Origin: Opitutaceae bacterium
Lineage (GTDB): Bacteria; Verrucomicrobiota; Verrucomicrobiia; Opitutales; Opitutaceae
DNA: 64,000 nt
Direction: 5' to 3'
Assembly: GCA_015075305.1 (NCBI GenBank)
Contig: JABTUS010000001.1
Span: forward strand, 496,001-560,000
In this document: in pieces, positions 4,943 to 35,097 of the stretch
Numbering within the stretch: the first letter of the stretch is position 1
Layout: every line of letters begins with the position of its first letter
Notes under the pieces: generated by a model
The model's input: only the letters and a program-made list of their open reading frames with translations
Database searches by the model: none
Told to the model about the DNA's origin: nothing
Program-made: the position numbers and the translations under genes

Positions 4943-4954
4943 GATGACATGTAG

Positions 4955-8507: not shown

Positions 8508-9995
8508 TCAACGGACAGCCTGAATCGCACGGGCACCTCCGCCAGGCCCCGGATTGGCGGCGGCTGCGTCGAGTTCCGCATCGTTCGGAAACCAATCAAA
8601 CGTACAGTCCCTTTTCCCGCGCAGGTGGCGGTCGGCGAAGTTCATCAGTGCTGTCCAGTCTTCATCGGTGAAGGCGTGGCTGTGATGCGAAAAATGGACG
8701 CCGATCCGATCCGCGGCGTCATAAAGCGCGTAGGCCGGCTTGGCGTGGAGCACTGACTGCCTCACGGCCTCCGGCAGCGAGATGCGATCGGTGTCACCCT
8801 CGAGGGAGAGAAAGGGCGTGGGCGCACACAGCGCAAGAAACCAATGTTGATCAAACGGCAGCTTTTCGCGGTGCCCCCAAAAATCGTGCAGGTTTGGTGA
8901 AAACCAGTTCGGCAGCTTCTTCATCATGAGATCGAGGGTCTCACTGTTGCGCGGGCCGGCATAACGGAACGCACCCACTCCACCGCCGCCCGTCACCACG
9001 GGAGCGCCCATCAGGCGGTTGTCGAATGCCGCCGCGAACATCGCCGCTTTGCCGGATCGCGACGCACCCGTGATGATCAGCTTCTTTCCGTCGATCACGG
9101 GATCGGTCTCGAGATAGTCGGCAATCCGCGAAATGCCCCAGGCCCACGCGCCGATCACGCCCCAGTCGTATTCGGGATAGGCCGGTGGAAAGCGCGTGGT
9201 TCGGAACGCCCAACTGCCGTCGGGCATCCTCAGCGTCGTATCCTCGGCGCAATCGTTGTGGTTGAACAATACAAGCGCGTAACCTCGCCGAAACACCTCG
9301 GCATACCGCTGGGCCGCGGCCTCAGCCGTCGCTTCGCCGCGCCGGCCTCCGCGCTCTGCGGATGTCGGAGGCTCTTCATCCGCCGCGGCGCCAGCGGCGG
9401 CCACTTTGGCGGCGACCTGCCGTTTGATTTCATCCACCGGCAGCAGCACGTCGACTCCCAAGCGGCCGAATCCGCGATGCAGCCGCGGCAATACCACTCC
9501 ACCGGGCGGCGTGCCGGCCTGATTGATAATCGTGGGGAAGGGCCCTCCGGTCGCCGGAGTCCAAATGCCGATGTCCAGGCTCAGCTTCTCCTGCGGACCA
9601 AACGTCAACCGCATCAGCCGGTACCGCACCTTGCCGTCCTGCACCATTTCGGTCGCAATCTCCTTTCCGGTCACGTTGCCGGGCGGCGGTGGCATCTGGC
9701 CGACGCAGTAATACTGCAGGATCACTTTCATTTCCTCCCGTCGCTTTTGCCACTGTTCCAGGCTGGTGACCCTGCTGCCGTCGTTCATCGTCATGATGTC
9801 CGGCATTTCCTTGCGCAAGGGAAGGTCATCCGGCCCGGGCATCCTTCCCAGCGGTCCCTCGATCCAAGGGACTGGAATCTCACGGGGGTCAGGCCTCGAT
9901 TCCACGTTTGCCGCGAGCGCAATCGGCAGGCATGAGCAGAGAATGGCCGAGCCCAGCGCCATGGAAAACTGGCGGACTATGGAGTTTGTCTTCAT
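8508..9995 (-). CDS. CE15-like exported esterase (glucuronoyl esterase family)
   Basis: A 495-residue alpha/beta hydrolase with an N-terminal signal peptide (hydrophobic to about ALAAN, residue 30). The nucleophile motif is GASRSGKAAM, the GxSRxGK form seen in bacterial CE15 enzymes. Further on are GGGGVGAFRYAG, LPFDQHWFLALCAPTPFLS and a histidine region VHFSHHSHAFTDEDW that should supply the catalytic His. CE15 enzymes cleave esters between lignin alcohols and glucuronic acid side chains, and some act on other uronate esters. It is the last of eight minus-strand genes running from 24214. It contains an AAGAAADEEPPTSAERGGRR insertion, typical of variable surface loops. The exact substrate is not predictable. 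Confidence 0.75.
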   Translation of the reverse strand: MKTNSIVRQFSMALGSAILCSCLPIALAANVESRPDPREIPVPWIEGPLGRMPGPDDLPLRKEMPDIMTMNDGSRVTSLEQWQKRREEMKVILQYYCVGQMPPPPGNVTGKEIATEMVQDGKVRYRLMRLTFGPQEKLSLDIGIWTPATGGPFPTIINQAGTPPGGVVLPRLHRGFGRLGVDVLLPVDEIKRQVAAKVAAAGAAADEEPPTSAERGGRRGEATAEAAAQRYAEVFRRGYALVLFNHNDCAEDTTLRMPDGSWAFRTTRFPPAYPEYDWGVIGAWAWGISRIADYLETDPVIDGKKLIITGASRSGKAAMFAAAFDNRLMGAPVVTGGGGVGAFRYAGPRNSETLDLMMKKLPNWFSPNLHDFWGHREKLPFDQHWFLALCAPTPFLSLEGDTDRISLPEAVRQSVLHAKPAYALYDAADRIGVHFSHHSHAFTDEDWTALMNFADRHLRGKRDCTFDWFPNDAELDAAAANPGPGGGARAIQAVR

Positions 9996-10062
9996 TCGGT
10001 GGATCGCTACTTGAATCTTGGTGGCTTGGATCTACGCGCGCGTATCGTTGGCGTGGCGATTG

Positions 10063-12573
10063 TCAGTGGTCGCGAGGAAACTGCCGGCCCAGCCAGTCGA
10101 TGACGTCCTGATGGATTGGGTCGACCAGGCGGATCTCTTCGAAGGGTGTCACCAGCTCGATGCCGTGTTCGTTGCCCAGTGATTTGTAGGTCAACCTGGC
10201 GAACTCCACCGCGTCGTGAACCTCGCCCAGCGTGGCATAGCGGTCTTCGGTGGGCGCGATGATCAGGACTTTTCTCGGAGCGACCGACGCCAGGATCTCG
10301 TTGTAATCGACGGGAATCCGATCCTCATGCCCGATGAAAGCGCCCAGGCGGGGAAGCCAGCCGTACAGTTGGCTCAGGCGGGCCAGACCACCGTCGCGCC
10401 GGTCGGCCGTGTCGGTGCGCAACGGCGTGAAAGCCGCCGCGGCGGCCACGCCGTCGACCCGCGCATCGAGACCCGCGGTCAGAATCGCCACGGTTCCACC
10501 CATGGCAAATCCATACAGGCAGACCGGCCGCGGCGTTTTCAGCAGCTCTGTGGCGGCGTCAATCGCCTGGCGTGCATCGCAGACCATCTTGCCCATCAAC
10601 GATGCATTCGGATGCCGGACAAAAAACTCGCGGCGCTCCTCCTGCCGATAGAAAGTGCCAATGGGATCAAACGCAAAGACAGGATAGCCGGCCTTGAGCA
10701 GCGCCACGGGGGCAAATTCCCCCATGCTTCGGCCGGGAGCATAGCCTTGGGCGGGCTGAAAAGCCGCCAGCCAGATGATGACGGGGCGATGCTCGTCTTT
10801 CCTGGGCGTGAAGAGGCAGCCCGTGACGCCATCGCCGAATGTGACGACTGTGGCGGTGACACTGGACTCCTTCGAGCGCTCCCCTGGCGATTCGGGTTCG
10901 TCGCCGTCCTCATGGTTCGCAGCGCCCCGGACGGGTGCTGGAGGCGGCACTCCGTCAACCGCATCCTGAATCTTCGTGAAGTGATTGCGCACCCCGACGG
11001 GCAGCGCCGAAAAATCATTCACGATCACGGCGGCTTTCCGGTAGGGAATCTCATCCCCGATCAGCCATTGAATCCTGCGGGCAACCTCCCGATGAGCGGC
11101 TTCCTGAGACTCCGCTGTCACTGGCGTGACCGGAGCATCGAGGGACAGTCGCTGACCAACCCGCGGAAATTCAGCGACGTTGATCGGATTGCGCGCCGCC
11201 CAAGCCTGATAGTTCCAAGGGTGCAGCGGCTTGAAGGGAAACACTGCCGACAGCGGCTGCGCGCCGCTCCGCGCATTCAGCAGAAAATCGCTGTAAGCGT
11301 CAAAGGTGTCAGTGCCGGTGATCGTGTGGCCACCCGGGCGGTAGCGCACGACCAAGTTCGAACTCCGGTCGAACATGTCGTAGATGGGAAGGATGGACTG
11401 GTGGACCTGCTCGACCGCCCACGTGTTTTCCACCGCGTCTTCCGTGGCCGTGCTCGTTATGAGAGGGCGCGGCGCGATCAGCGCGTAGAGAAAGTGGCTG
11501 TCCACGGGGAGCTTGTCCTCATTGCCCGCAAAAAACCGCGCACGCAGATTGATCCAGTCGGGATTCTGACGGGTCATTCGCTCGACCGAAGGCCCGGAGT
11601 AGTTCTGGTCGGCGAAGCGATAAGGTATCGAGCCCGCCGTGCCCGAGCTCGAGGAGATGACGCCCGCAAAGCGCTGGTCGAAAGCCGCCGCTGTCAGTGC
11701 CACCTTGCCCGAGCGGGAATGTCCCCCGATGTAGATTTGCTTCGGATCGACGAACGGCAGGGTGATCAACCAATCCACCACGCGACTGGCGCTCCAGCCG
11801 CGCCGCCGGAGAGCGGACCAGTCCAGCTTCCCGAAGAGTTCGCTGTATTGCAGCGATTCGTCTCCTCTCCCGTCGCGGGCGTTGTGGACCGCAAAGCCAA
11901 AATCACCCGTCTCCATCGCCTTCCTTGCCCAGGACCGGTAGCGTTCACTGTCGCAGAGAAAAATCCCCGACGGCGTGCGGTTCTTCGGCAGGTAAAGTTT
12001 GACGCCCAGCCTGGCCGCGTGGTTTGGCCCGAAGGTCAGGCGCACGTTCCAAACGTCGTATCCGTCGACGGTCGTCTTTTCGAGGATTTCAGCCGCGACA
12101 TTGCCCGGCGGTGGCGGTGCGGTGCCGAGCACCCATTTTTCCATCATATCGGCCACTTGCTGGCGGCGGACCGGCCAGTTGGCCAGGGTGGCTCGCTGAC
12201 CACGCCCCTCCTCCACCCAGCTCATGGGATCCGGGAGGAAGAACTGCGACGGCATCAGGTCGAAATCGGGCGGCAGTTCTCCGCTGCGCTTCAGGAACTC
12301 GCTGAATGCCGGCGAGGGAGGCAGGCGCTGCTGGAGCTTCTCGAGAATGAGCTGTCGTTTCGCAATGCTACCGGGTTCGAGCGCCCGATTGATCTCGGCG
12401 GCGGAACGGCCAGGACTGGAAAATGCCAGTACACCCAAAAGCATCACCATGCTCCTCGCGAGCCATTGCCGGAAGGAGCGCCCCCCAACAACCAGAGGAG
12501 ACCTGAGTTTCAAGAGGATCGCGTTCGAATGAAAGCGAGCGGAGCGACAGGGTGGAGATGATGATAGTGACAT
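10063..12573 (-). CDS. Tandem alpha/beta hydrolase: CE15-like domain plus degenerate second domain
   Basis: An 836-residue exported protein with two hydrolase domains. Domain 1 (about residues 90-440) has GGHSRSGKVAL, NEDKLPVDSHFLYALIAPRP and a likely catalytic His in RPGGHTI, matching CE15 glucuronoyl esterases. Domain 2 (about 560-836) has the hydrolase fold signature LYGFAMGGTVAIL, but the nucleophile position is alanine (Ala690, codon GCC at 10506-10504) instead of Ser. Domain 2 is therefore probably non-catalytic and may bind substrate. The start is uncertain: the ATG at 12450 (MVMLLGVLAFSSPGRSAAE) gives a cleaner signal peptide than 12573. It lies between the sulfatase gene and the smaller CE15 gene. 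Confidence 0.75.
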   Translation of the reverse strand: MSLSSSPPCRSARFHSNAILLKLRSPLVVGGRSFRQWLARSMVMLLGVLAFSSPGRSAAEINRALEPGSIAKRQLILEKLQQRLPPSPAFSEFLKRSGELPPDFDLMPSQFFLPDPMSWVEEGRGQRATLANWPVRRQQVADMMEKWVLGTAPPPPGNVAAEILEKTTVDGYDVWNVRLTFGPNHAARLGVKLYLPKNRTPSGIFLCDSERYRSWARKAMETGDFGFAVHNARDGRGDESLQYSELFGKLDWSALRRRGWSASRVVDWLITLPFVDPKQIYIGGHSRSGKVALTAAAFDQRFAGVISSSSGTAGSIPYRFADQNYSGPSVERMTRQNPDWINLRARFFAGNEDKLPVDSHFLYALIAPRPLITSTATEDAVENTWAVEQVHQSILPIYDMFDRSSNLVVRYRPGGHTITGTDTFDAYSDFLLNARSGAQPLSAVFPFKPLHPWNYQAWAARNPINVAEFPRVGQRLSLDAPVTPVTAESQEAAHREVARRIQWLIGDEIPYRKAAVIVNDFSALPVGVRNHFTKIQDAVDGVPPPAPVRGAANHEDGDEPESPGERSKESSVTATVVTFGDGVTGCLFTPRKDEHRPVIIWLAAFQPAQGYAPGRSMGEFAPVALLKAGYPVFAFDPIGTFYRQEERREFFVRHPNASLMGKMVCDARQAIDAATELLKTPRPVCLYGFAMGGTVAILTAGLDARVDGVAAAAAFTPLRTDTADRRDGGLARLSQLYGWLPRLGAFIGHEDRIPVDYNEILASVAPRKVLIIAPTEDRYATLGEVHDAVEFARLTYKSLGNEHGIELVTPFEEIRLVDPIHQDVIDWLGRQFPRDH

Positions 12574-12726
12574 GTTTGCCTTGATTAAATGCTGTGAGGC
12601 CTGACTCGCGGATCTTTACTTTGGAGTCGTCTTCTTGAGCGCGGACACGGACTTGGTCGCGGGCGTGGACGCAACGACGAGGCGGCGGATTCGTGTACCT
12701 CCGCCCGCAACGCTGCGCCCGCCGCC

Positions 12727-14199
12727 CTATTGATCCCGGTCCTCGCCTCTCGCAGTTTTGGTTTCCTTTGGCTGGCTGGCGGCCTTGGCTCGGTCGTCCT
12801 TCAATTCCTGTTTCGTTTTCATGACGGGCATTTCAGCGTGCACGCTGGTCCGCCAGGCGGCCAGTCGAGCCTCCAGCTCCTTCACCTTGTCCGGCAGTTG
12901 CGCAGCGAGATTGTGCCGTTCCCCGATGTCGTCGCGGAGGTTGTAAAGTTCGACCTTCCCCGATTCGAAGAACTCCATCAGCTTGAAATCGCCGCTGTGG
13001 ATCGCGCCAACGGGACCGGTCCTCAGTCCGGTGCCGCGGTGCACATAGGACGGGAGATAGCCTGGAAAATGCCACATGATCGGCGGCCGGTGATACGGTG
13101 CCGCAGGGTTTCGCAGGACGGATAAAAAGCTGACCCCGTCCAGCGGGTAATGCGGCTTCGGGGTCGCGCCGGCGATCTCGAGGAAGGTCGGGTAGATGTC
13201 GACATGCACCGCCATCGCCTCGCTCGTGGCGGCGGGCGGCACGACCCCGGGCCAGCGGATGATGAACGGCACGCGCAGTCCGCCCTCGTAGAGGGTGCCC
13301 TTGCCGCCGCGCAGCGGTGCGTTGTCTGTAAAGCCCTTGATCTTCGATGGCGGCTCGGTCCGCTGATACCCGCCCAGGCCGCCGTTGTCCGACGAGAAGA
13401 TGAGCACGGTATTGTCGGCGAGCTTCAGCGCCTCGAGTCGCGCCATCACCCGGCCGACGCTTTCGTCGAGGCTCTGGATCATCGCGGCATACGCCGGATC
13501 CCAATGCGTGCCCTTCGGCGCCTTTTTTTTCCAGGCAGCCTCGTATTCGGGCTTGGGAGTGATCGGGGTATGAACCGCGAAGTACGGCAGGTAGAGGAAA
13601 AACGGGCGGTCCTGGTGCCGGTCGATGAAATCCACCGCGCGGTCCGTCAGGAAATCCATGAGATATTGTTCCGAGGGCTGCGGCACGGACGGCAGCCTGA
13701 GAAATGAGCCGCGTGTGGATGCAACCATGGCGTCGTCAAAGCCGCGCGCGCCAGGATGATACTCCCCGTCGTTGCCAAGGCCCCATTTGCCAAATATCGC
13801 CGTCGCGTAGCCCGCGGTCTTCAGCACCTGGGGCAGGATGAACCTGTCAAGTCCGAGTCTCGTCGAGTTCTTCGGCACGTTCATGCGGCGTTCGAGCAAC
13901 GGGCCGCGATCGAGCGACTGCACCGTGTAGACGCCGGTCCGCGGCGCATACTGGCCGCTCATCAATGCGGCCCGGGTCGGTGTGCAATTCTGGGAGTTGT
14001 AGAAGCGCTGCATCCGGAGGCCCTGCGACGCCAGCCGGTCGATATTGGGCGTCTCGTAGTACTCCGAGCCCTGACAGTGCAGATCCGTCCATCCCAGATC
14101 GTCCGCGAGAATGTAGACGATATTCGGAGGCCTGGTCGCCGCCGCGTGCGAGAACGCAGCCAATTCGGCCAGGAGGAGAAATGGGATCAGGAACCTCAT
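12727..14199 (-). CDS. Exported cysteine-type sulfatase
   Basis: A 490-residue member of the arylsulfatase family, with a signal peptide ending around SHAAA. The metal site begins with ADD (D33, D34), and the formylglycine motif is C72-T-P-T-R followed by AALMSGQ. Other family blocks are GKWGLG, SSDNGG and LRGGKGTLYEGGLRVP. It should remove sulfate esters from a sugar in the periplasm after maturation by a formylglycine-generating system, which is not in this window. It follows the beta-helix gene by 14 bases in the same operon. After the TAG stop the frame stays open for 36 more codons to a TAA at 12616. Confidence 0.92.
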   Translation of the reverse strand: MRFLIPFLLLAELAAFSHAAATRPPNIVYILADDLGWTDLHCQGSEYYETPNIDRLASQGLRMQRFYNSQNCTPTRAALMSGQYAPRTGVYTVQSLDRGPLLERRMNVPKNSTRLGLDRFILPQVLKTAGYATAIFGKWGLGNDGEYHPGARGFDDAMVASTRGSFLRLPSVPQPSEQYLMDFLTDRAVDFIDRHQDRPFFLYLPYFAVHTPITPKPEYEAAWKKKAPKGTHWDPAYAAMIQSLDESVGRVMARLEALKLADNTVLIFSSDNGGLGGYQRTEPPSKIKGFTDNAPLRGGKGTLYEGGLRVPFIIRWPGVVPPAATSEAMAVHVDIYPTFLEIAGATPKPHYPLDGVSFLSVLRNPAAPYHRPPIMWHFPGYLPSYVHRGTGLRTGPVGAIHSGDFKLMEFFESGKVELYNLRDDIGERHNLAAQLPDKVKELEARLAAWRTSVHAEMPVMKTKQELKDDRAKAASQPKETKTARGEDRDQ

Positions 14200-14213
14200 G
14201 GTTTCGTTTCCCT

Positions 14214-15689
14214 TCAGGGTTGGCGGTCGATATGGCCGCGGGCCGCCGCCGGATTGGATGTGAGCGGCGCTTCGGGGGTTGCTCCGGATTCGAACGCACC
14301 GGCATCGTAGGGCACGGAACGGGCGACCCGGTCATGATCGATGACGGGAGCATGGGCGGTCCGCCCAATCCCGACCGCGCCGCTCGTGGATTTCAGATGA
14401 AGATCATATCCCGAATTGAGGTTGTCCGCGGGGTAGTATGCAAAATTGGCGTTATGGGACTGAGACTCGAAATTGCTGGCGTTGGGATAGTCGACCACGC
14501 CCTGCGCCGCCCAATAGTCACGTCCCGACGGAAGGTCTGAAGCGAAATTGTTCTCGATGATGTTTCCGCTGCTGGCGAGCGAGGGGTGTTCCGGATAGCT
14601 CTTGTGATGCCTGATGGTGATGATGGGAATGTTGTTCTTGGGATGATAGGGGTTTTGAATCACGGTGTTGTTGACGATCCTGCAGCCGGTCGCACCCAGC
14701 ACTGTCAAGGCATGGACGTGATCGACGATGATGACGTTGTTCTCGAATACAAAATCGACGAACATGCCGCTGAAGAATCCCATGCCATTCACCCCGTGTC
14801 CCTCGTCATCCGGAAAGGGGCGCCCGGGACCGGTCGTGTTGTTGATGATCGTGTTTCCCCGAAAGACATTGCGATAAAGCGTCCGTTCCCCGGTCGGAAT
14901 CCCGTTTCCCCCGCCAGAGGTCCAGGATTGGATGCCGTCGTCGTGATTCGAATTCACCCCATACCAGTTTCTCAGGGTATTGTATTCGTAGAGCCCGTCG
15001 TTCGACAGCGCAAAGATGCCATCGTTCAGAATGTCCTCCACGACATTTTCGCTCACGACCACGTTGTCGGCTTCAAACTGCACCCACACGCCGGTCCTTA
15101 TGTTGCGGATGTGATTTTTCCGGATCGTGCAATGCACGCCGGCGACATGCACGCCGGTTCCCATCCTCGCGCCGAAATCCGAACGGCTCCACCCGGATAC
15201 CGACGTGGAACAGCGGATGGCGCAGTTCTCCACCGTGATGTGGTGCGAGGACGGCAGAATATCCACGAGTCCCCGCACCGCGCCTTTCTGATCGACCCGA
15301 TCGACGTCCCCTGCGTTTTCCTGACTGATATTCAAGCCGGAAATGATCCAGTGCTGCGCGTGATCCACCCCGAGGCGGCGCAATTTCGGAGAATTTCCGT
15401 CCTGCGGCCGGATGGAGACACTTCCCGAGGCGGGCCCTCCGGTTACGACGGGCGCGCCATGAAAACCGTCTCGAAGGTAAATCACATCGCCGGAGGCGAA
15501 CGTCCTGCCGTTGGCGAACACCGTTTCAAGCGCGCCCCACGGTGATTCCATAGTTCCAGGATTGCGCATGCTGCCATTGACCGGGTCACAGTAGTAATCG
15601 GCGGCGTGAAGTCCCGCGACGGCGAGCCACCCGGCCAGCGTCAGGGTGAGCACACCTGGGAATGTTTTCAGCGTGAGCGGGAATCTCAT
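14214..15689 (-). CDS. Exported right-handed beta-helix protein (polysaccharide lyase-like)
   Basis: A 491-residue protein with a signal peptide (cleavage near GLHAADYYC). Repeated short turns such as HHITVENCAIRC, CTIRKNHIRNIRTGVWV, VVVSENVVEDI and NNVIIVDHVHALTV mark a parallel beta-helix of the pectate-lyase/NosD type. The N-terminus DYYCDPVNGSMRNPGTMESP resembles the start of PL-type helix proteins that act on pectin or alginate. I cannot identify catalytic residues with confidence, so it may be a lyase, an epimerase or a binding protein. Its start codon lies at the left edge of the near-identical duplicated block, immediately downstream of the Tat hydrolase gene. Confidence 0.75.
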   Translation of the reverse strand: MRFPLTLKTFPGVLTLTLAGWLAVAGLHAADYYCDPVNGSMRNPGTMESPWGALETVFANGRTFASGDVIYLRDGFHGAPVVTGGPASGSVSIRPQDGNSPKLRRLGVDHAQHWIISGLNISQENAGDVDRVDQKGAVRGLVDILPSSHHITVENCAIRCSTSVSGWSRSDFGARMGTGVHVAGVHCTIRKNHIRNIRTGVWVQFEADNVVVSENVVEDILNDGIFALSNDGLYEYNTLRNWYGVNSNHDDGIQSWTSGGGNGIPTGERTLYRNVFRGNTIINNTTGPGRPFPDDEGHGVNGMGFFSGMFVDFVFENNVIIVDHVHALTVLGATGCRIVNNTVIQNPYHPKNNIPIITIRHHKSYPEHPSLASSGNIIENNFASDLPSGRDYWAAQGVVDYPNASNFESQSHNANFAYYPADNLNSGYDLHLKSTSGAVGIGRTAHAPVIDHDRVARSVPYDAGAFESGATPEAPLTSNPAAARGHIDRQP

Positions 15690-17885
15690 GGCTCGGGAAA
15701 AAGCGTTGAGCTCGCCGCCTTACGCCGGGACACCGGAGGCGGAGGCGGGCTCGATCTGGCGGAGTTTTTTAGATTCCAACTCGCGGTAGCAATCCGGCAG
15801 ATCGAATGCCTTCAGCACGCCAGGGACAAGCGTGGCCCACGGCCAGTCGTATCCCGGGGTCTCAGCCACGTCCGCGTAGCTGGCAAGCGCGTGCTTCAGA
15901 GTGACCTGCTTCACGCGGTCGTGCAGGACGGCCGCAAACGTGCCTGGAATCGCGCCCCAGCCGCGGGCGACAAGGTGCACTTCCTCATGGTCGTAGCCGG
16001 CCATCCAGTCGAGCACGCGCAGGAGGTCGAATGTGCGCTGTCCCGCAGTGGGATAGTCGAACAAGACCCCGAATCCCGCGTGCATGTTGTCGACCCTGCT
16101 CTTCTGCGGGTTGTCGGATGTCGAGATCCCCGGTTGCGATTCCCCTACTCCGCGCACGTCGCAGGCGTAAATTGCCGCCTTTGGCTCCGCCTCGCAGATT
16201 TCCTTCAACCAGGGATCGGTGCGCAGTTCCTCGTCGGCGGAGCGATGGGCGACATACAGGACCGCCCGTTTGGGCCCGCGTGGCGGGCGCGAGAGGAGTC
16301 TTCCTTCGCTGAGGCGATAGACGAAGACCTGGATGTCAGGCTCCGTTTCCAGCAGGTATTCGGCATGGTTTTTTTTCGGGTATCCCCGGGCGCTTGCTCC
16401 GGTCATGATCCGGAACTCGCACACGCCCTCGCGTGAGGGCAGCCTGAGTGTCGATGTGATTCGCTGCCGCAGCGCGGCTCCCGTCAATGCCGGTCTTGTG
16501 GAGCGCAGTTTTCGCGACAATTCAGCGCCATGGGTGAACTCCGTTTTCGCCTTCAACTCGGCCACCTGGCCGTGGGGCAGGCATCGAAGATTGTCCCAGT
16601 TCTCGCGCGTGAGCTCCGGTTCCTTCGGCACCTGGGGCATGCCCGAGTGATGGCTGAACCAGCGGTACATCGCCTCGCGGTTGGGCTGGGCAAATCCGTG
16701 GCCCCCCGTTCCGAGATAGAAGGAGAAGTTTTCCTCCGCACCGAGCAGCGCATAGAGCCGGCGAAGCCTGACACAGGCCTCCTCGAAGCCGCGCACATCA
16801 AAAAAATCGTTCTCCTGTCCAACCAGCAGCACGGCACGCGGGGCCATCGCAGCCAGGAAGTCGGAATGATCGAGTCCGTGCGCGAGCAGCCCCCACGGCA
16901 GATTCTCCGGATCGAGCGGACGCTCGTTTTCAACAAGCCTGCGCAGCGAGGTCACATTGCAGCTCGGCGCCGCCATTGTCAGGCGCAAATCGAAACCGCA
17001 GAGCAGCTTCGTCTGGTTCCCCCCGCCGGAGCTGCCCGTGATGCCGAGGTGGCGGGAATCCACTTCTGGCCGCAAAATGAGATAATCCAGCGAACGAATG
17101 CAGTCCCACACGAACCAGGTGGGCAGGGTCTCCCCCACCAGCGGCATGCGCACGCCGCTGTAGATGTGCTCGCCCGTGCCGCCGCCGTGCATGGGCTTGA
17201 ATGCGGCGTCCACATACTGGTAGCGCTCGCCCTGACCGATCGGATCGAAGGCAAGCGCGACATAGCCCTGCCGCACGAGAGCCTGGGCGATGGTCGCTGA
17301 ACCGACCTTGCCCGAGGAGAAGTGGCCCACGGGAACCAACACGCCGGGCGAAGGCGTCCGTCGATTGGTCGGAACGTAGAGATTGGCCGTCACCGGAAAT
17401 CCGGGGCGGCTCTCGTAAATGACGTTTTCAATGCGGTAGCCATCGCGTTCGAGCGTCTTCAGGACTCGCGCATTGAGCGGAGTCTTTTCCGGCATGGGTC
17501 CAAAGCACTTGCCCAGTCGTTCCCGCACATCGGCGACATAACGCTCCGCGTCCGCCTTGGTGCGCAACGCCGCGCGGCGCGCATCGGCCTCCTGCATCAC
17601 CTCGCGCGTGCGCCGCACGTAGTACTCCTGCACGGAACGCGGCGATCGGTTGTGCCTGGCGAGTCCTCCCGGTTCGGACCCCGCCGCACTGGCGGGAGGA
17701 TCGTCGCCCTCGTCATCGGTGGAGGGCCGGGCGCGAACATCCGCGCCCATGGCGGATGGCATGGCCGCGCCAAAAAGCGCGAAGCCGCTGCGTTGCAGCA
17801 TTTGACGGCGGGTGAGATCATTCATGATTTGAAAGGTGCAACGTGGATGTTGGCGCGCAACCGGCAGGCGCACCATGAGGTTTCA
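15687..17885. repeat. 2.2-kb near-identical duplication, copy A
   Basis: Bases 15687-17885 match 28430-30628 at a constant offset of 12743, with only a few substitutions seen (for example near 15765-15771, 17694 and 17845). Sequence beyond both edges is related but clearly diverged. The block is one complete hydrolase gene plus its leader. Confidence 0.9.
15720..17825 (-). CDS. Tat-exported two-domain alpha/beta hydrolase, copy A
   Basis: A 701-residue protein starting MNDLTRRQMLQRSGFALFG, a Tat-type leader. The frame is open 17 codons further, but this ATG puts the twin arginine at the right place. Domain 1 (about 110-400) resembles acetyl-xylan-esterase-type hydrolases: nucleophile S266 in GSSGGG, acid probably D343, H376 in GTGGHGF. 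Domain 2 (about 450-690) has the hydrolase outline LYVAHRSAD..YACDVRGVGES, but its nucleophile elbow reads VARGWGA, with Gly where Ser is expected. It is probably a polysaccharide deacetylase/esterase with a non-catalytic C-terminal domain. It lies 30 bases from the beta-helix gene and 74 from the SGNH gene. A near-identical copy ends at 28463. Confidence 0.78.
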   Translation of the reverse strand: MNDLTRRQMLQRSGFALFGAAMPSAMGADVRARPSTDDEGDDPPASAAGSEPGGLARHNRSPRSVQEYYVRRTREVMQEADARRAALRTKADAERYVADVRERLGKCFGPMPEKTPLNARVLKTLERDGYRIENVIYESRPGFPVTANLYVPTNRRTPSPGVLVPVGHFSSGKVGSATIAQALVRQGYVALAFDPIGQGERYQYVDAAFKPMHGGGTGEHIYSGVRMPLVGETLPTWFVWDCIRSLDYLILRPEVDSRHLGITGSSGGGNQTKLLCGFDLRLTMAAPSCNVTSLRRLVENERPLDPENLPWGLLAHGLDHSDFLAAMAPRAVLLVGQENDFFDVRGFEEACVRLRRLYALLGAEENFSFYLGTGGHGFAQPNREAMYRWFSHHSGMPQVPKEPELTRENWDNLRCLPHGQVAELKAKTEFTHGAELSRKLRSTRPALTGAALRQRITSTLRLPSREGVCEFRIMTGASARGYPKKNHAEYLLETEPDIQVFVYRLSEGRLLSRPPRGPKRAVLYVAHRSADEELRTDPWLKEICEAEPKAAIYACDVRGVGESQPGISTSDNPQKSRVDNMHAGFGVLFDYPTAGQRTFDLLRVLDWMAGYDHEEVHLVARGWGAIPGTFAAVLHDRVKQVTLKHALASYADVAETPGYDWPWATLVPGVLKAFDLPDCYRELESKKLRQIEPASASGVPA

Positions 17886-17898
17886 TTGTCCTCGGCCG

Positions 17899-18684
17899 TC
17901 AGGGTTTCAAAGCGGAGGCGAGTGGGACGTCCTTCAGTTTTCGAATGCCTTCGACGACGCATTCGGCATTGATCCGGGCACCCGCCTTTCTTGTGTGCTG
18001 GCGGTCGTTGAAAACCTCTCGGGCCTTGTCCTGTCCGAGCGCATCGAAGCGATCGGCGGCAAGGGCATTCAGGTCGATGAACAAGGCACCGCCGACGCGC
18101 GCAGCCTCGGCCGCCCATTCGGCGTAGCCATCAAAGCCGCGTTTGATCCGACCATCGCTCCACTCGTTGCGCGGAACAGGCGAGCAGATGATGCACGTGG
18201 CCCCCTTTGCCTTCGCGTCCCTGACGTACTGACGCAGGTACCACCCGTAGCTATGAATGAGCCTGGGGGAGTCCTTCGTGCCCGCCTGGAGCGTTTCATC
18301 ACCGGCGGAAGTGATGGTGGAGCGATCCGCCTTGCTCGAATTCCATGTGTCATTGTGGCCAAACTGGAGGATGACAAAATCGCCCGGCTGCACCTCCTTC
18401 AGCACGCGCGCCCACGAGCCCTCTTCGATATAGCTTCGACTGCTTCGGCCGCCGATCGCCGCGTTGTAAACGTGAATCCGCGCCGGATCGAAGAACTCAC
18501 CGAGCTCTGATCCCCAGCCCCACGGCCCGCGCTCTCCATTGCCGGAGCCGGTCTTCATGATCGAGTCTCCAACGAGAAAAAGGGCCGGATGATGGACGGG
18601 ACCATCCGGAAGAGGCGGTGGAGCCTCGGCTGCGCCGACCACGGCAGCCAGCAGCAGAGTCATGGCGAAACAACGACTTTTCAT
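17899..18684 (-). CDS. SGNH/GDSL esterase, rhamnogalacturonan acetylesterase-like (CE12 type)
   Basis: A 261-residue exported protein; the signal peptide ends near GAAEA. SGNH blocks are present in order: LVGDSIMK (catalytic Ser), NAAIGGRSSRSY (block II Gly), LQFGHND (block III Asn), and DRQHTRKAGA near residue 230 (catalytic Asp/His). The GGRSSR and GHND forms are those of CE12 enzymes, which remove acetyl groups from rhamnogalacturonan or xylan. It sits between two Tat hydrolases and is 12 bases from the upstream one. A truncated C-terminal stub of a homologous gene lies at 30642. Confidence 0.85.
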   Translation of the reverse strand: MKSRCFAMTLLLAAVVGAAEAPPPLPDGPVHHPALFLVGDSIMKTGSGNGERGPWGWGSELGEFFDPARIHVYNAAIGGRSSRSYIEEGSWARVLKEVQPGDFVILQFGHNDTWNSSKADRSTITSAGDETLQAGTKDSPRLIHSYGWYLRQYVRDAKAKGATCIICSPVPRNEWSDGRIKRGFDGYAEWAAEAARVGGALFIDLNALAADRFDALGQDKAREVFNDRQHTRKAGARINAECVVEGIRKLKDVPLASALKP

Positions 18685-18696
18685 GGCAAAAACGGT

Positions 18697-20826
18697 TCAG
18701 GCATTGACGCCCATGGCAGAGACCGGATCGATCTGGCGGAGGTTCCTGCTCTCCAACTCGCGGTAGCAGTCCGGCAGGTCGAACACTCGCAGCACGCCAG
18801 GGGCGAAGGCGGACAGCGGCCAACTGTAGTCCTCGACCTCGGCGATGTCGGAATAACTCGTCAGCGCATGCTTCAAGGTGACCTGCACGACCTCGGGCGA
18901 CAGCACGGCGGCAAACGTGGCCGGCAATGCGCCCCATCCTTTCGCGACAAGGTGAATGGCTTCGTGTCCTGATGCTTTCAACCAGGCGATCACGCGCAGG
19001 ACGTCATGCGTTCGCTGGCCGACACAGGGATAGTCGAGCATCAGCCCGTGCGCCGCATAAAAATAGTCCGGACCATAGGGCGCGTTGGGTGGAAGATTGG
19101 TCGTGTTGGGCGCCGACTCTCCAATTCCCCGAACATCGCAGGCATGGACAGCCGCCGCGCTTTCAGCAGCAACAATCTCGGCAAGCAATGGCTCGTCGCG
19201 CAGCTCGGCATCGGCCGACTGGTGCGCAATGTAGAGCACGGCCCGCTTCAATCCGCGGGGTGGGCGTGACAGCAGCGGTTCGTCCGAAAGCCGATAGACC
19301 AGCGCCTGTATTCCCGGTTCGGTCTCGACGACATAGGTTGCCGCGAAAGGTTTCGGATAGTTCCTATCACGGCCTGGCCGCAAGATCCGATAATCCGGCA
19401 CGCCGTCGCGAGACGGCAGCTTGAGCACCTCAACGAGCGCCTTCCGCAACTTCGCGCCGCTGAGTCCGGCCCGCCCGCGTCGGGCCGCTGCCGAGGCGTC
19501 GCGGGTAAAGTCGCACACCGTGCGCGATTTCAAGTCAGCGACCTGGCCGCGGGGCGTGCACCAAAGTGTTTCCTCCTTTTCGAGCGTGAGTTGGGGTTCG
19601 GTTTCGGCATCAGAGGCCTTTGTGACCCGGTTGAACCATCGATACATCGCCTCACGCACGGGCTGCGAGAAGCCATGATAGTCCGGACCGATGAAATGCG
19701 CGATGTCCTTTTCCGCGCCGAGCAGCCGATAGAGCGTCTGAAGCCGCTCATAGGCCTCCTCCATGCCGCGCACGTCGAAAAAATCCTTCTCCTGATCGAG
19801 CAGGATGACGGGCTTGGGGGCGACCGCCGCCAGAAAATCCGAGTGATCCAATCCAAGCGCCAGGGCCCCCGGCGGGCATTGCTCCGTGTCGGACGGCAGC
19901 TCGTTCTCCAGATTCCGCAGAAACGTCGTGACGAAACAACTGGGCGCGGCCATTGCCCACCTCTGCTCAATGCCGCAGAGCCAGGCCGTGTCGGTCCCGC
20001 CGCCCGAGTTGCCCGTGACGCCCACCCGCTGCGGGTCAACCTCCGGACGCGTCAGCAAGTAGTCCAGTGCGCGCACGCCATCCCATGCCCGCCAGGCACC
20101 GAAGAATTCGCCGACCAGAACCTGCTGGTTGCCCACATACAAATGTTCACCCACGGCCACGCCGTGACGCGGCTTCAAATCAGGGGTGAGGAGCTGCACG
20201 CGCTCGCCCTGCCCGATCGGATCAAACACCAGCACGATGTAGCCGAGTCGCGCCAGGCCTTGAGCGAAGGACTGGTATGTTCCACCGGCCTTGCCACTGT
20301 GCGTGTGGCCGCAGGCTCCGACGACTCCGGGCCGCGGAAAGGGGCGCCCCTTGGGCACATAGAGATTGGCCGTCACCAGGAATCCCGGACGACTCTCGAA
20401 GATCACCTTCTCGATGCGGTAGTCATCGCGTTCGACCATGCCCGTGACCCGCGGATTGAGCGGAGTCTTCGGGGGCAATGCGCCGAACGATTGCCGGATC
20501 TTGCCGCGGACCTCCCGCACATAGGCCTCGGCATCCGCCTTCGTTTGGATGGTGGCTCGACGCGCATTGGCTGTTTGCTCCACTTCGCGCACGCGTGTGA
20601 CGTAGTACTCCTGCACCATCCGGCCGAAACGATTCAATGGGGCCGGCGCCAGTGGCAGCTTGGGCGTGAAGGGAACATTCGTCTCGGCGGCCGCTCCCAT
20701 TGCGGATTGCGGCGCGCCAATTTTTCCCAAAACGACGCCGCACAGCCCGGCGCCTGTTGACTTCAGGAGCGCCCGCCGCGAAATGCGGCCGGTCGAACCA
20801 ACCGGAGACGATGATGAATGTCTCAA
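18697..20826 (-). CDS. Tat-exported two-domain alpha/beta hydrolase, diverged paralogue
   Basis: Paralogue of the hydrolases ending at 15720 and 28463, sharing domain order and many blocks. The leader is ISRRALLKSTGAGLCGVVLG. Domain 1 has GNSGGGTDTAWL (nucleophile Ser), QEKDFFDVRGMEEA (acid) and IGPDYHGF (His). Domain 2 again lacks a nucleophile: VAKGWGALPATF. The open frame runs to 21213 but the upstream part overlaps the receptor gene's 3' end and is not protein-like. A TTG at 20826 gives 709 residues and a full Tat leader, so I prefer it, though no Shine-Dalgarno is clear. It lies about 40 bases after the receptor stop codon. Confidence 0.72.
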   Translation of the reverse strand: MRHSSSSPVGSTGRISRRALLKSTGAGLCGVVLGKIGAPQSAMGAAAETNVPFTPKLPLAPAPLNRFGRMVQEYYVTRVREVEQTANARRATIQTKADAEAYVREVRGKIRQSFGALPPKTPLNPRVTGMVERDDYRIEKVIFESRPGFLVTANLYVPKGRPFPRPGVVGACGHTHSGKAGGTYQSFAQGLARLGYIVLVFDPIGQGERVQLLTPDLKPRHGVAVGEHLYVGNQQVLVGEFFGAWRAWDGVRALDYLLTRPEVDPQRVGVTGNSGGGTDTAWLCGIEQRWAMAAPSCFVTTFLRNLENELPSDTEQCPPGALALGLDHSDFLAAVAPKPVILLDQEKDFFDVRGMEEAYERLQTLYRLLGAEKDIAHFIGPDYHGFSQPVREAMYRWFNRVTKASDAETEPQLTLEKEETLWCTPRGQVADLKSRTVCDFTRDASAAARRGRAGLSGAKLRKALVEVLKLPSRDGVPDYRILRPGRDRNYPKPFAATYVVETEPGIQALVYRLSDEPLLSRPPRGLKRAVLYIAHQSADAELRDEPLLAEIVAAESAAAVHACDVRGIGESAPNTTNLPPNAPYGPDYFYAAHGLMLDYPCVGQRTHDVLRVIAWLKASGHEAIHLVAKGWGALPATFAAVLSPEVVQVTLKHALTSYSDIAEVEDYSWPLSAFAPGVLRVFDLPDCYRELESRNLRQIDPVSAMGVNA

Positions 20827-20869
20827 GGGAAAAAGAGAGCGCGGGAAACTCGCAACCCCGCGATCCGAC

Positions 20870-23800
20870 TCAAAGGTCGAATGTCGTCGTGAACACGAAT
20901 GTCCGCGGATTGATGATGCGGAAGGTGTGCGGTTCGCCGTTGGGATACGCTCCGACGGGTTGGAGACGGGCTTTTGACTCCTGGATATTGCGAACATTGA
21001 GTTGAAACCGCGCGCGTATCTTGCCGCCGAAAAGCTTCGTCTGGTAGATCGCGAAGGCGTCAAAATACGCATGGGCCTTGTCCCAAATGGGACGAGTGGG
21101 ATCGAGTGTTTCTGCCGCATCGATATTGCCGTCGATCGGAACGCCGTAGAAGCCGATGGCGCCCTTGCTTTCCCAGCGCACGCCTCCGCCGACAGTGAAA
21201 TTCTTGAGCACACGGTGGTCGGTCAGCCCGGCGAGCCGGTAACTCGTGGCGAGATTGAAGCGCCATTCACGAATCTGCGGGCGGGCCGTGCCCGCAGTGG
21301 CGCCGTCGATGCGGAGCGGTGTGAGGATGCTGCTGAGAATGTAGTCGCGCGGCGTGCGCGTGCCCGTCGAGGGAAATTCTCCGGAATAACTGCTGTCCAG
21401 CCACTTCTTGCCGGTGCGCGGATCGACAATCGTTTCCCATACCGCCATCCTTTCATCGAGCCATTCGCGATTGGCTGGTGACTGCAAGCCGTCGATGGAA
21501 ATGGTGCGCGTCACATTGCTGCGCAGTGTCCAGAAACTCGTGGGATTGAAGTTCAGTTCATACTCTTCACCCTTCGCATTGATATTCGTTGTATCTGCGA
21601 CGGTGTTGCCACGCCAGGTCGTTTCCACGTCCGGGGAGAGTTTCTGGATGCGGTTGGCTTCGGCATTGGCCGCATCGATACTCATGGAGGGATTGAGCTG
21701 GGTCAGCCAGTTGACTGCCTGCCGGTGCAGCGAAAAGGTGTCCGCAAGGGCGGCAAAGTCATCATAATCCATTTCCTTCAGCCGATTCGCCATGAGCGCT
21801 CCCTGCCCGGCGCGGGAGTTGATATTGTCCGTGGTGTAGTGGTTGACTCGAAGCCAGAACTTCGTGCCGAAACCCAGGGTGAAGCCGTAGTCCTGACCGA
21901 CCGAGCTGGGATTGGGCAGCGCCTCCAGCTTGATGTTGATCGCGGGCTCCGCAGGACGGAAGCTGTCGGAACGGTTGTAGAACACGCTCAGGCCCTGCAG
22001 CGCAGAGGCCAGATGCGACTTCCAGCCTGTGCCTGTGCGGGCGCTTTCGATGAAACTCCAGTCGCGGAAGGGTCGGACAACCGCACCCTTGGTTGTCGTG
22101 TCACCCTCACGTATCGCCCAGTCGCCACGCCACCCGGACATCCGCGCGTAGTCGTATTCATAGCCGTTGGGCAGGAGCTGAACCCTGTCCTGGCGCTTGT
22201 ACCCGCTCTTGTCCGAACGCCGGCCGAAAGTGGTTACAAGTCGGTTGCCAAGAAACGTGCTCTGCAGAATCGCGCCCTTTGTCTGGATCAGGTTGACCGT
22301 GGAGCTGGCATTTTCACCAGCACTGCCTTCGGCGACAGCGGATTGGCCAAAGGTGGCCTTGTCAGTCACCCACTGCTTTGTCTTTGGGTCATACCAGGTG
22401 AAATCATAGATTCCGTAACTCGTCCTCGACGGCCCATAGTCCGCATCCTGGCCCGAGGCGTCTCCAACGTAATAGTGGAAGTAGGGGCGTGTGGCCTGCG
22501 ATGAGGGGCCATAGCCATTTGTGGTGAGGGCATTGCCCTTTGGCGCGCCGGCCGGTGCATACACCGGATTGTCCGAAATCATCACGTCGCGAAAATTATA
22601 GACGCGGTTCTTGCTCTTGCGCTCTTCGTAGTAGCCGAGCAATTGCTGCCGTCCCAGCAGTCGCAGCCATTTCGACTTCTCCTTGGTCAGGTCGAGCACG
22701 TAGGCAAGCTGCCCGCGATAGCTGTCCTGCTCAAAGGGCCGCTCATTGTAGACCGGCTCTACGGCGCCAAAATATGGTTTCAGGAAAAACGGATTGGGCC
22801 GGCCGTCGAGCAGCCGGCTGTTGGGGTCGACTCTGAGCAGAAAACTTTGCCCGACACCGCTGATGGTATTCACGATTGTCCGACGAACCCGGTCCGATTC
22901 CTCACGCTGCCAGGCAAATTGAAAAGCGAGCGTATTGCGCTCCGAGTTGAGAATCATCTGCTCGAATTCCACGGTCGACGTATCGGTCTCCTCCCGCTGG
23001 TAGTTCGCACTCGCCAGGTTCACATGGGCGTAGTCGTAAACGGAGGAGTCCGACACGCCGCGCAGTATTGCGAAAAGCGGACGACCATCCTGGATGGGGT
23101 CGCTAATGCTCTCAAGCATGCGATTGACCCCGGTGATGCTGCCGGCGCCGTTGCTTGCGTTGGCCGCCGGCATCCGCCCAATTTCCCAGAGTTGAATCCC
23201 TCCGTTGTCGACGAACATGATGGGACCGGCCCGATTCAAGTTCGCGAGACCAGGGGGATTGTTGGTGCCGGTATAGGTCGTCGAAACGCCATTGACAGTC
23301 GCAGTCTGGGTAACTGGGTCCCATGTCGGACTTCCCGTTTCGCGCCAGTAGGTCACACCGTCGCGGGGCGTCACTGTCGTTCCCCGCGCACCATCACCAA
23401 AATAGGTTTGGAACGATGCACGCAGCGTGGTGTACTTGAATGGCTGGACCCTGATCATGGCATTGAGCCGGCGGGTATTGAAGCTGGATGGCTTCTGATA
23501 GTCCTCGTCGTGCTGATAGACGCCACTCACGCGCGCCGCGAGTTTTCCGGGAATCAGCGAGCGATTCAGGTCAAACGAAGTGCGCCAGCCGCCCGTGTTG
23601 TCGACGCGGAACTGAACCTGGGAGATCTCGCGCCTCAGGTTGGCGGACGCGGCGACCATGTTGACCGTGCCGGAGCCCTCGCCGAGTCCGAAGATGCTCG
23701 AATTGGGACCACGGCTGATTTCAACGGCGTCGATGTCGATCGGATCGACGGGAACGCGACCGCTGGAGGCGAAACCGGAGCGCGAGATATTGGCAGCGCC

Positions 23801-24214
23801 GATGCCGCGCAGGCGGTTGGACGTCGCCCGATCCGACTGAACATTGTCGTCTATCTGGCCCTTGCGATTGATCTCAAAATCCGTGTAGGTGCCCACACCC
23901 TCCGCGCCGGCCTCGTAGGCAAAGATGTCGTTGATGTCCAGCATCGCGAAATCTGACATCTGCTGCTTCGTGACAACGGAGATCGACGATCCCAGGTCCT
24001 CCAGGCTGGTGTTCAGCCGCGTTCCGGACATCGTATTCGTCGCGAGGTAGCCGTTGTTCGATTCGACCACCTCGAAAGGCGACAGGACCACGGCTTTTTC
24101 CTTCTCGTTTGGATCCGTGTCGGTGGAGGATTGACTCGTGGTGGACTGTGCCGCCACGGAAGCGGCGCAGGCGGCAAGCATGGCGGTTATCTTGGAGGCG
24201 AACGAGGATTTCAT
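20870..24214 (-). CDS. TonB-dependent outer-membrane receptor, copy A (no STN domain)
   Basis: A 1114-residue outer-membrane receptor. MKSSFASKITAMLAACAASVAAQ is a signal peptide. The plug begins VVLSPFEVVESNNGYLATN and contains LEDLGSSISVVTKQQMSDFA; the C-terminus ends RTFVFTTTFDL, a typical beta-barrel end. The frame extends to 24343, but the ATG at 24214 directly precedes the signal peptide. The N-terminus goes straight into the plug with no STN signalling domain, unlike its close paralogue at 30712-34392. It is probably the first gene of the minus-strand locus and imports an oligosaccharide released by the downstream enzymes. It is divergent from the LacI gene. Confidence 0.92.
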   Translation of the reverse strand: MKSSFASKITAMLAACAASVAAQSTTSQSSTDTDPNEKEKAVVLSPFEVVESNNGYLATNTMSGTRLNTSLEDLGSSISVVTKQQMSDFAMLDINDIFAYEAGAEGVGTYTDFEINRKGQIDDNVQSDRATSNRLRGIGAANISRSGFASSGRVPVDPIDIDAVEISRGPNSSIFGLGEGSGTVNMVAASANLRREISQVQFRVDNTGGWRTSFDLNRSLIPGKLAARVSGVYQHDEDYQKPSSFNTRRLNAMIRVQPFKYTTLRASFQTYFGDGARGTTVTPRDGVTYWRETGSPTWDPVTQTATVNGVSTTYTGTNNPPGLANLNRAGPIMFVDNGGIQLWEIGRMPAANASNGAGSITGVNRMLESISDPIQDGRPLFAILRGVSDSSVYDYAHVNLASANYQREETDTSTVEFEQMILNSERNTLAFQFAWQREESDRVRRTIVNTISGVGQSFLLRVDPNSRLLDGRPNPFFLKPYFGAVEPVYNERPFEQDSYRGQLAYVLDLTKEKSKWLRLLGRQQLLGYYEERKSKNRVYNFRDVMISDNPVYAPAGAPKGNALTTNGYGPSSQATRPYFHYYVGDASGQDADYGPSRTSYGIYDFTWYDPKTKQWVTDKATFGQSAVAEGSAGENASSTVNLIQTKGAILQSTFLGNRLVTTFGRRSDKSGYKRQDRVQLLPNGYEYDYARMSGWRGDWAIREGDTTTKGAVVRPFRDWSFIESARTGTGWKSHLASALQGLSVFYNRSDSFRPAEPAINIKLEALPNPSSVGQDYGFTLGFGTKFWLRVNHYTTDNINSRAGQGALMANRLKEMDYDDFAALADTFSLHRQAVNWLTQLNPSMSIDAANAEANRIQKLSPDVETTWRGNTVADTTNINAKGEEYELNFNPTSFWTLRSNVTRTISIDGLQSPANREWLDERMAVWETIVDPRTGKKWLDSSYSGEFPSTGTRTPRDYILSSILTPLRIDGATAGTARPQIREWRFNLATSYRLAGLTDHRVLKNFTVGGGVRWESKGAIGFYGVPIDGNIDAAETLDPTRPIWDKAHAYFDAFAIYQTKLFGGKIRARFQLNVRNIQESKARLQPVGAYPNGEPHTFRIINPRTFVFTTTFDL

Positions 24215-24300
24215 CGTCGGGAGATGCGGGGGGTTGGCGGTTTGCAGTGAGCGCCACGAGGCGTTCACTGAGAAGCAGGAAGAAACAACCCGACGATGTG

Positions 24301-24316
24301 GCAACCGCAGCGTTGC
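24301..24316. promoter_or_regulatory. Candidate LacI-type operator in the receptor/regulator promoter region
   Basis: GCAACCGCAGCGTTGC has 5-bp inverted arms (GCAAC/GTTGC), roughly the size and CG-containing centre of LacI-family operators. It lies 87 bases upstream of the receptor start and 180 upstream of the regulator start. This is a single site judged by eye. Confidence 0.3.
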
Positions 24317-24495
24317 TTGTATCGTATAAGCGGAAAACCCCAAGGCACGCCGGGCACTTTTGGATGCATCTTGGTGTCAAAGACCGCAGGTGTGACCCCG
24401 GTCAATGGACCCGGTCCAGCCTGTTCACACCCATCGCCGCCGAAAGAACTTTAGCCGTTGAAATCCCTGTCGGATCGGAAACGCTTCGGCCGCCA

Positions 24496-27017: not shown

Positions 27018-27039
27018 GCGCCAGCCAACCGACCTCCCC

Positions 27040-30628: not shown

Positions 30629-30641
30629 GCATCCTCGGGCG

Positions 30642-34392: not shown

Positions 34393-34515
34393 GCACGTAA
34401 ACGACGGACCAAGTGGGGGTCGCGACGTATGGGAATCTCAATTTTTTTGACATATCGGTTCATGCTTGAACTCACTGCGCGACCGGACCAAAGACCGGGG
34501 GCCCCCTCCTGCGCG

Positions 34516-35097
34516 ATGAGCCCTCCCCCCTCAACACCCGCAACCCTCCTTCCCGCGCCGAACGACCGGTCGCGCTGGTTCAGCGAAGAGGTGCAACCGC
34601 ACGCATCCTCCCTGCGCTCCTATCTCCGCGCTTCCTTTCCCGGAGTGCGCGATCTGGACGACGTCGTGCAGGAGTCCTACCTGCGCCTGTTCCGCACTGC
34701 GGCAAGGCAGCCCATCCGCTCCGTCCGGGCCCTGCTCTTCACCGTCGCCAAGCGGCTCGCCCTCGACACCGTGAGGCACGACAGGGCTTCGCCAATCGAT
34801 GCCACCCTCGACCTCGACGAATTGGACATAGCAGCCGAAGAGCCTGATGTCGCGGAATGCGCCGACCGCCGTGAGCGGATCCGACTTCTCGCGAGCGCCA
34901 TCGCCAAACTGCCCGGCCGGTGCCGGCAGACATTCATCCTTCACAAGATAAACGGCTGCTCCCGCAGGGAAGTCGCCCTCCAACTCGGCCTGTCGGAACG
35001 GACCGTCGAGGTGCAAACCGCCACGGCCATGAAACGCTGCGCCGACTACCTTCGACGCCGCGGGGTCAACGGTCTGTTTGCCAATGAGCCCCGATAA
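34516..35097 (+). CDS. ECF sigma factor, FecI-like
   Basis: A 193-residue two-region sigma factor. Region 2 contains FPGVRDLDDVVQESYLRLFR and FTVAKRLALDTVRHDR; region 4 contains AIAKLPGRCRQTFILHKING followed by SRREVALQLGLSERTVEVQ. The frame is open to 34429; the ATG at 34516 is used because residues before it are not conserved in type, but 34462 is possible. It overlaps the FecR gene by 14 bases, indicating translational coupling. It is divergent from the STN-containing receptor it probably activates. Confidence 0.9.
   Translation: MSPPPSTPATLLPAPNDRSRWFSEEVQPHASSLRSYLRASFPGVRDLDDVVQESYLRLFRTAARQPIRSVRALLFTVAKRLALDTVRHDRASPIDATLDLDELDIAAEEPDVAECADRRERIRLLASAIAKLPGRCRQTFILHKINGCSRREVALQLGLSERTVEVQTATAMKRCADYLRRRGVNGLFANEPR

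Follow-up and report, generated by a model that had tools for sequence, protein, structure and literature searches.

A SusD-less esterase and sulfatase locus of an Opitutaceae bacterium with a beta-helix protein as candidate backbone-cleaving enzyme

Gene content and proposed role of the locus

How might a bacterium exploit a polysaccharide by means of a gene cluster in which all recognised enzymes remove substituents and none evidently cuts a backbone? This question is raised by a locus within a stretch of 64,000 nucleotides from an Opitutaceae bacterium (GenBank assembly GCA_015075305.1, contig JABTUS010000001.1, positions 496,001 to 560,000), hereafter referred to as the window. According to the open reading frame (ORF) lists, the minus strand of the window carries eight long genes between 8508 and 24214, separated by 12 to 153 nucleotides. 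They form a real, operon-like array and are presumably co-transcribed. In the direction of transcription they encode TonB-dependent receptor 1, a hydrolase with a signal of the twin-arginine translocation (Tat) type (Hyd2), a CE12-like SGNH esterase, a second Tat-type hydrolase (Hyd1), a right-handed beta-helix protein (BH), a sulfatase and two CE15-type proteins (CE15b and CE15a). A preceding reading of the sequence alone had described this gene content, and the ORF lists together with a Pfam scan bear it out. The scan identified two CE15-type domains, a sulfatase, a beta-helix, a GDSL/SGNH domain and a TonB plug, both Tat-type proteins producing weak scores. Pfam and structure-homolog searches likewise agree with the sequence-only reading in that all recognised enzymes among the eight remove substituents, and no glycoside hydrolase (GH) or polysaccharide lyase (PL) model of Pfam or NCBIfam matched any of the eight products at an E-value of 0.001.

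We consider it probable that the eight genes constitute one transport-and-stripping module of a system which resembles a polysaccharide utilisation locus (PUL) but lacks SusD, and which is directed at a sulfated and acetylated polysaccharide rich in methyl-esterified uronates, a pectin- or rhamnogalacturonan-like one being the likeliest. A decorated uronate polysaccharide had already been suggested as the target and, judged by the homology of the recognised enzymes, is still the most likely one. The pectin or rhamnogalacturonan assignment is favoured by several observations, among them that the pectin methylesterase BT1017 is the closest relative of Hyd1 with a solved structure, that the CE12-like protein matches a rhamnogalacturonan acetylesterase, that sister modules of the same genome and of its relatives possess a PL9-like gene and that CE15 enzymes are present in pectin PULs of Bacteroidota. 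In such a module receptor 1, presumably located in the outer membrane, would import oligosaccharides, Hyd1 and Hyd2 would hydrolyse uronate esters of methyl (or another group), the CE12-like enzyme would take off acetyl groups, the two CE15 enzymes would split bulkier uronate esters and the sulfatases would take off sulfate. A sugar porter encoded further downstream in the window would import sugars, and a LacI-type regulator and an extracytoplasmic function (ECF) sigma factor/FecR pair, also encoded there, would govern two receptor units. The backbone may be cut by BH at the present locus and by a PL9-like lyase in the sister modules of the genus.

Sister modules carrying a PL9-like lyase gene

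Hyd1 has five matches in the source genome, three of them in the window, one on contig C3 and one on C10. At C3 the genes are arranged in the order TonB receptor, Hyd, CE12, sulfatase, beta-helix protein (PL9-like) and sulfatase. This arrangement is found in four of four loci, belonging to the source genome and to the genomes G055, G169 and G082 of the same genus, with CE12 being called as an ORF in three of them (not in G169) and the G169 lyase being detected by tblastn. The protein encoded at the G055 sister locus (L159:14662-15807) scores 82.2 bits with the Pel9A-like model PF22842 (cut-off 25.2) and contains the FKxGG motif. The full-length gene codes for 381 residues in G055, and 380 and 381 residues are aligned in G169 and G082, respectively. 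The C3 lyase gene of the source genome (L156:9945-10555) is broken: stretches corresponding to roughly residues 40-89 and 220-336 in the ortholog from G055 are missing, the frame changes and the region of the lysine motif is lost. A PL9-like search of the source genome yielded C3 alone and found no PL9 remnant in the window.

The earlier suggestion of an undescribed PUL type devoid of a backbone enzyme is thus not supported, since the related modules on C3 and in G055, G169 and G082 carry a PL9-like gene. The missing backbone enzyme in one locus may reflect loss or relocation, which becomes apparent only upon comparison with sister loci. In G169, G055 and G082, as on C10 of the source genome, a Hyd gene adjoins a sulfatase gene and has neither CE12 nor PL9-like neighbours within the stretches examined. 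Of ten genomes of the genus, the source genome included, the same four contain PL9-like matches, several Hyd matches and BH matches. In G183 a single partial Hyd match is accompanied by no PL9-like and no BH match. G169 retains the order receptor - Hyd1 - BH at 66-77% identity.

The beta-helix protein

BH (14214..15689, minus strand) is, as the sequence-only reading had stated, the only candidate for a backbone cutter among the eight gene products. Its sequence alone finds no significant match among solved structures (best E-value 0.5), and a profile search returns matches at the level of the N-terminal cap only. Scanning contigs with two peptide patterns, [ND]HDDG[FI]QS and PW[SG][TA]L[EQ][AT]VF, gave 249 matches, 221 of which encode BH relatives, and 80 were kept; among the taxa given in the titles of the records are Verrucomicrobiota, Planctomycetota, Myxococcota and Bacteroidota. 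Within the family Opitutaceae BH is uncommon, a match being found in 11 of 200 genomes with the source genome included. In 76 aligned BH sequences N215, D223, N237, H249, D251, Q254, S255 and N279 are invariant, whereby residues 248-255 are conserved by construction in 71 of the 75 homologs, as one of the patterns spans them. This selection effect is offset by a pattern-free alignment of seven sequences (A1), which retains N215, D223, H249, D250 and D251. In the four homologs which matched only the second pattern, H249, D251, Q254 and S255 are retained, and variation is seen at D250 (two of them having N or R) or at G252. D223, H249, D250 and D251 are candidate active-site residues.

The structure of BH was predicted with a predicted local distance difference test (pLDDT) score of 85.9 and a predicted template modelling (pTM) score of 0.88. 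Its fold most closely resembles those of BT_1002 (Z = 27.8), Pel9A (1ru4, Z = 27.3), the epimerase AlgE4 (Z = 27.0) and the rhamnogalacturonan lyase 5olr (Z = 26.9), all tied within 1; lacto-N-biosidase LnbX, with Z = 22.8 in this comparison, is ranked first by Foldseek. We take BT_1002 to be a GH141 and LnbX a GH136 enzyme. With BT_1002, AlgE4 and LnbX, BH has the beta-helix fold in common, without any sequence-level match in the catalytic part. With PL9 Pel9A and 5olr it shares the fold over 330-337 residues and homology of the N-terminal cap. The lysine of the FKxGG motif, which is invariant in nine aligned PL9 relatives, is presumably the catalytic base of Pel9A. The excerpted text of PMC6796002 states that Pel9A works with a lysine as base. 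None of the 75 BH homologs contains the FKxGG motif, a nearby column being occupied by phenylalanine (F306) in all 76 sequences. Since this motif is absent and a profile comparison of BH with PL9 aligns the N-terminal cap only, we refer to BH as PL9-like in fold rather than as a PL9 enzyme. Judged from their spacing, D223, D250 and D251 might be equivalent to the calcium site of PL9.

From its sequence and predicted structure, BH appears to be the best candidate for a backbone-cleaving enzyme among the eight genes. Tentatively, we go one step further: BH may found an unnamed family of carbohydrate-active proteins that occurs in Verrucomicrobiota, Planctomycetota, Myxococcota and Bacteroidota and has a candidate site (D223/H249/D250/D251) distinct from that of PL9, and it may have replaced PL9 as backbone cutter of the module while the PL9 copy of the genome decayed. 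It is a concrete candidate, accessible to experiment, for a new family of carbohydrate-active beta-helix proteins. At L019:7836-10742 a BH-like domain is fused to CBM9 and Ig-like domains, and at L021:4295-14212 such a domain lies within an ORF of 3305 residues. The BH relative of G055 (L016) is located near genes of apiosidase-like, DUF6298, BT_1020-like and MGH1-like proteins.

The CE19-like esterases and their second hydrolase domain

Hyd1 (15720..17876, minus strand, 718 residues) and Hyd2 (18697..20826, minus strand, start uncertain) are 53% identical, and both carry a twin-arginine motif near their start (TRRQMLQ and SRRALLK). Among the usual start codons, the TTG at 20826 is the nearest one for Hyd2 below the gene of the receptor; with this start, a gap of 43 nucleotides would separate this seventh gene from receptor 1. 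Among proteins of solved structure Hyd1 has its closest relative in BT1017 (PDB 6goc), whose family we take to be CE19. It is found with an E-value of 1.2e-18 in a single-sequence search and of 1.6e-32 with a profile of 20 homologs including Hyd2, the next family following at 5.8e-11. S283, D357 and H393 of Hyd1 align with the catalytic triad of 6goc, and all 20 homologs retain them. The excerpted text of PMC7939467 describes BT1017 as founder of a family of pectin methylesterases, with a triad of Ser282, Asp352 and His388. By their nearest solved relative, Hyd1 and, through the joint profile, Hyd2 are predicted CE19-like esterases. Hyd1 and BT1017 have the alpha/beta-hydrolase esterase domain and the aligned Ser-Asp-His triad in common. 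BT1017, however, possesses a C-terminal DUF3826 domain as well as a metal site formed by two cysteines and two histidines and belongs to the rhamnogalacturonan-II system of Bacteroides, whereas Hyd1 lacks the cysteines at the aligned CPC stretch and is equipped with a signal of Tat type and with a second alpha/beta-hydrolase domain that has no nucleophilic serine. Near a Hyd2 relative in G043 (L169), genes of apiosidase-like proteins, DUF6298 and a GH123-like protein are observed.

The second domain is a peculiarity not only of the Hyd proteins. Profile comparison reveals that their C-terminal region is homologous to the esterase domain with a probability of 97.3%, and that of CE15b with 99.7%. 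Pfam adds two weak matches in Hyd1 and a single weak one in Hyd2, and it gives no match in two of the homologs. The position aligned with the nucleophile is occupied by Gly or Asp in the Hyd homologs, with serine in none of 23, and by Ala, Thr, Glu or Gly in the CE15b homologs, with serine in none of nine, three more rows stopping before the site. CE15b itself has Ala at this position. The threonine in three of the CE15b-homolog rows could conceivably still act as a nucleophile. Two CE15b relatives (L194 and L195) lack the serine of the first domain as well. The second domain is recognised from profiles, a structure model of Hyd1 built on four sequences being of low quality (mean pLDDT 49.6). 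We can only guess that the second domain serves in substrate binding. Two esterase families retain this combination, in which an active esterase domain is joined to a second hydrolase domain devoid of its nucleophile, and the arrangement should be of interest to enzymologists.

The CE12-like, CE15-type and sulfatase enzymes

The SGNH protein (17899..18684, minus strand; PF13472, E-value 9.9e-18) is closest to the rhamnogalacturonan acetylesterase 1deo (E-value 5.7e-26), with which the GDS, GHND and D-x-x-H blocks are aligned. Both CE15 proteins contain the G-x-S-R-x-G-K nucleophile motif and the catalytic histidine and are thus predicted to be esterases of CE15 type. CE15a (8508..9995, minus strand, 495 residues) matches PF22244 with an E-value of 2.6e-30 and PDB entry 7nn3 with 2.8e-42, its motifs reading GASRSGK and HSHAF. 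The two-domain CE15b (10063..12573, minus strand, 836 residues) matches PF22244 with 2.6e-32 and OtCE15A (6syr) with 7.5e-22 and carries the motif, GHSRSGK, in its N-terminal domain. Throughout the source genome the CE15-type model produces seven matches in six ORFs, two of which belong to the present locus. The S1 sulfatase (12727..14199, minus strand; PF00884, E-value 1.5e-59) contains the C/S-x-P-x-R maturation motif as CTPTR at residue 72. Its best match, 9fo1 (E-value 3.5e-110), is an S1_16 enzyme, as are the further matches 6ust and 7oza.

Substrate and alternative explanations

A number of observations weigh against a pectin- or rhamnogalacturonan-like substrate. The placement of the Hyd proteins near CE19 has one characterised relative as its basis, and the only PL9-like match of the source genome is the broken C3 gene. 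The galactose-stacking tryptophan of S1_16 aligns to a gap in the sulfatase at 12727-14199. According to the excerpted text of PMC10154612 and PMC11760155, this tryptophan stacks on galactose in characterised S1_16 enzymes, and the S1_16 likeness therefore does not fix the substrate of the sulfatase. The neighbours of BH relatives are mixed: a tally of 95 ORFs, drawn from 36 chosen loci out of 80 with most Myxococcota and Deltaproteobacteria left out, contains three rhamnosidases, four beta-helix proteins and two GH2 enzymes, with no dominant family. Furthermore, the source genome (97.6% complete) contains no GH88-family match and one GH28 match, fewer than pectin use of the classical lyase-based kind would ordinarily require, and 80 sulfatase matches, several of which are pieces of one gene. 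Such counts fit a sulfated substrate rather than ordinary lyase-based pectin use. The absence of GH88 is, however, not decisive, since G169 (89% complete) retains a full PL9-like gene without a GH88 match; six of the ten genomes of the genus, the source genome counted, show at least one such match. The number of sulfatases and the missing GH88 match would suit an exopolysaccharide of algal, cyanobacterial or bacterial origin that is sulfated and bears uronate esters, in which case the CE19-like and CE15 enzymes would act on glucuronate esters and BH would cut the backbone. In the same direction one can read that the extended locus holds two sulfatases and that similarity assigns two ORFs to the sulfatases in every sister locus of C3 type, a single one of these ORFs having also been compared with Pfam. 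Three Pedobacter loci, in which a BH relative is accompanied by PL8, GH88, rhamnosidase and SusD genes (Pfam on L046, clustering for L048 and L057), can be cited for this reading as well as for a pectin-like substrate. Nonetheless, the CE12-like protein and the PL9-like sister lyase point to galacturonate or rhamnogalacturonate chemistry, and we regard a non-pectin substrate as somewhat improbable.

The broken C3 gene, which contrasts with the full-length genes of three relatives, and the small number of backbone enzymes of the searched types (GH88 and GH28) would also be expected if the source species had lost PL9 and lived as a scavenger, stripping and importing oligosaccharides released by others, with BH being non-catalytic or a binding protein. 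This is unlikely in our view, as the conservation of D223, H249 and D251 in 76 of 76 BH sequences, even if partly due to the choice of search pattern, would be unusual for a pure binding protein, and the C3 deletions could be an assembly fault. Finally, the best NCBIfam matches of receptor 1 are of siderophore-receptor type, all far below the cut-offs, so one might think of an iron-chelate receptor which happens to lie next to unrelated esterases without common purpose. This is very improbable: the series receptor, hydrolase, CE12 and sulfatase recurs on C3 and in relatives, the hydrolase-sulfatase pair on C10 and in three relatives and the receptor-hydrolase pair inside the window, and no siderophore gene is named among the scanned neighbours. 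Because the module recurs, we rejected scattered, unrelated neighbours as an explanation of the locus.

The extended unit and its surroundings

The sequence-only reading had let the locus end at 24214, yet related genes continue to 36109. The gene of receptor 1 (20870..24214, minus strand, ATG start; PF07715, E-value 2.7e-6) is followed on the plus strand by genes of a LacI-type regulator (24109..25554 as listed), a sugar porter of the major facilitator superfamily (25641..27017; TIGR00879, E-value 4.8e-105, above cut-off) and a second S1 sulfatase (26944..28392 as listed; CSPSR; PF00884, E-value 2.5e-49). NCBIfam models of LacI type match residues 134-192 of the regulator below their cut-offs; as its DNA-binding part begins near residue 134, the true start should lie downstream of 24109. 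There follow, on the minus strand, a near-identical Hyd1 copy (28463..30619, four nucleotide differences in 2157) and TonB-dependent receptor 2 (30712..34392), which is 81.8% identical to receptor 1 over 3211 nucleotides and has an N-terminal extension we take to be STN-like. An ECF sigma factor gene (34429..35097, plus strand; PF08281, E-value 1.7e-12) and a FecR-type regulator gene (35078..36109, plus strand; PF04773, E-value 1.3e-13) complete the unit. The segment 15673-17952 recurs at 28416-30695 as a repeat of 2.28 kb with 99.1% identity. Since this repeat includes the last 54 nucleotides of the CE12 gene, the Hyd1 copy beside receptor 2 probably originates from the eight-gene cluster.

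On the other side of the cluster, repeats of 49-344 bp are present at 3857-4949 and 8322-8424, and similar pieces adjoin the 3' end of the eight genes. Residues 376-404 of the ORF at 6324-7607 match a DDE transposase model of ISAZ013 type; this ORF is possibly a decayed insertion element.

Comparison with known systems

The SusC/SusD pair of Bacteroidetes-type PULs is not found here: a receptor is present, and no member of the SusD family was seen among the scanned locus proteins (Pfam and NCBIfam, with receptor 2 and the Hyd1 copy outside the Pfam scan). CE15 enzymes occur in Bacteroidota pectin PULs according to the excerpted text of PMC10807430, where they stand, as they probably do in the present locus, alongside pectin-targeting genes. 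Those PULs carry GH28, GH78, GH106, GH105 or PL11 in the same excerpts, none of which was matched in the eight genes, which instead hold CE19-like enzymes and a sulfatase. With the sulfatase-rich Verrucomicrobiota loci described in the excerpted part of PMC8857213 the locus shares the phylum and the many sulfatases, S1_16 included; the gene contexts given there contain glycoside hydrolases, in contrast to the eight genes, where none was matched. Among the titles and opening lines of abstracts returned by searches of the open-licence literature, none was seen to describe this gene combination in Opitutaceae. The locus points to CE19-type esterases outside gut Bacteroides, in a SusD-less and sulfatase-rich setting. 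Altogether, the module looks like a variant of an already known kind of system which harbours one unstudied enzyme family.

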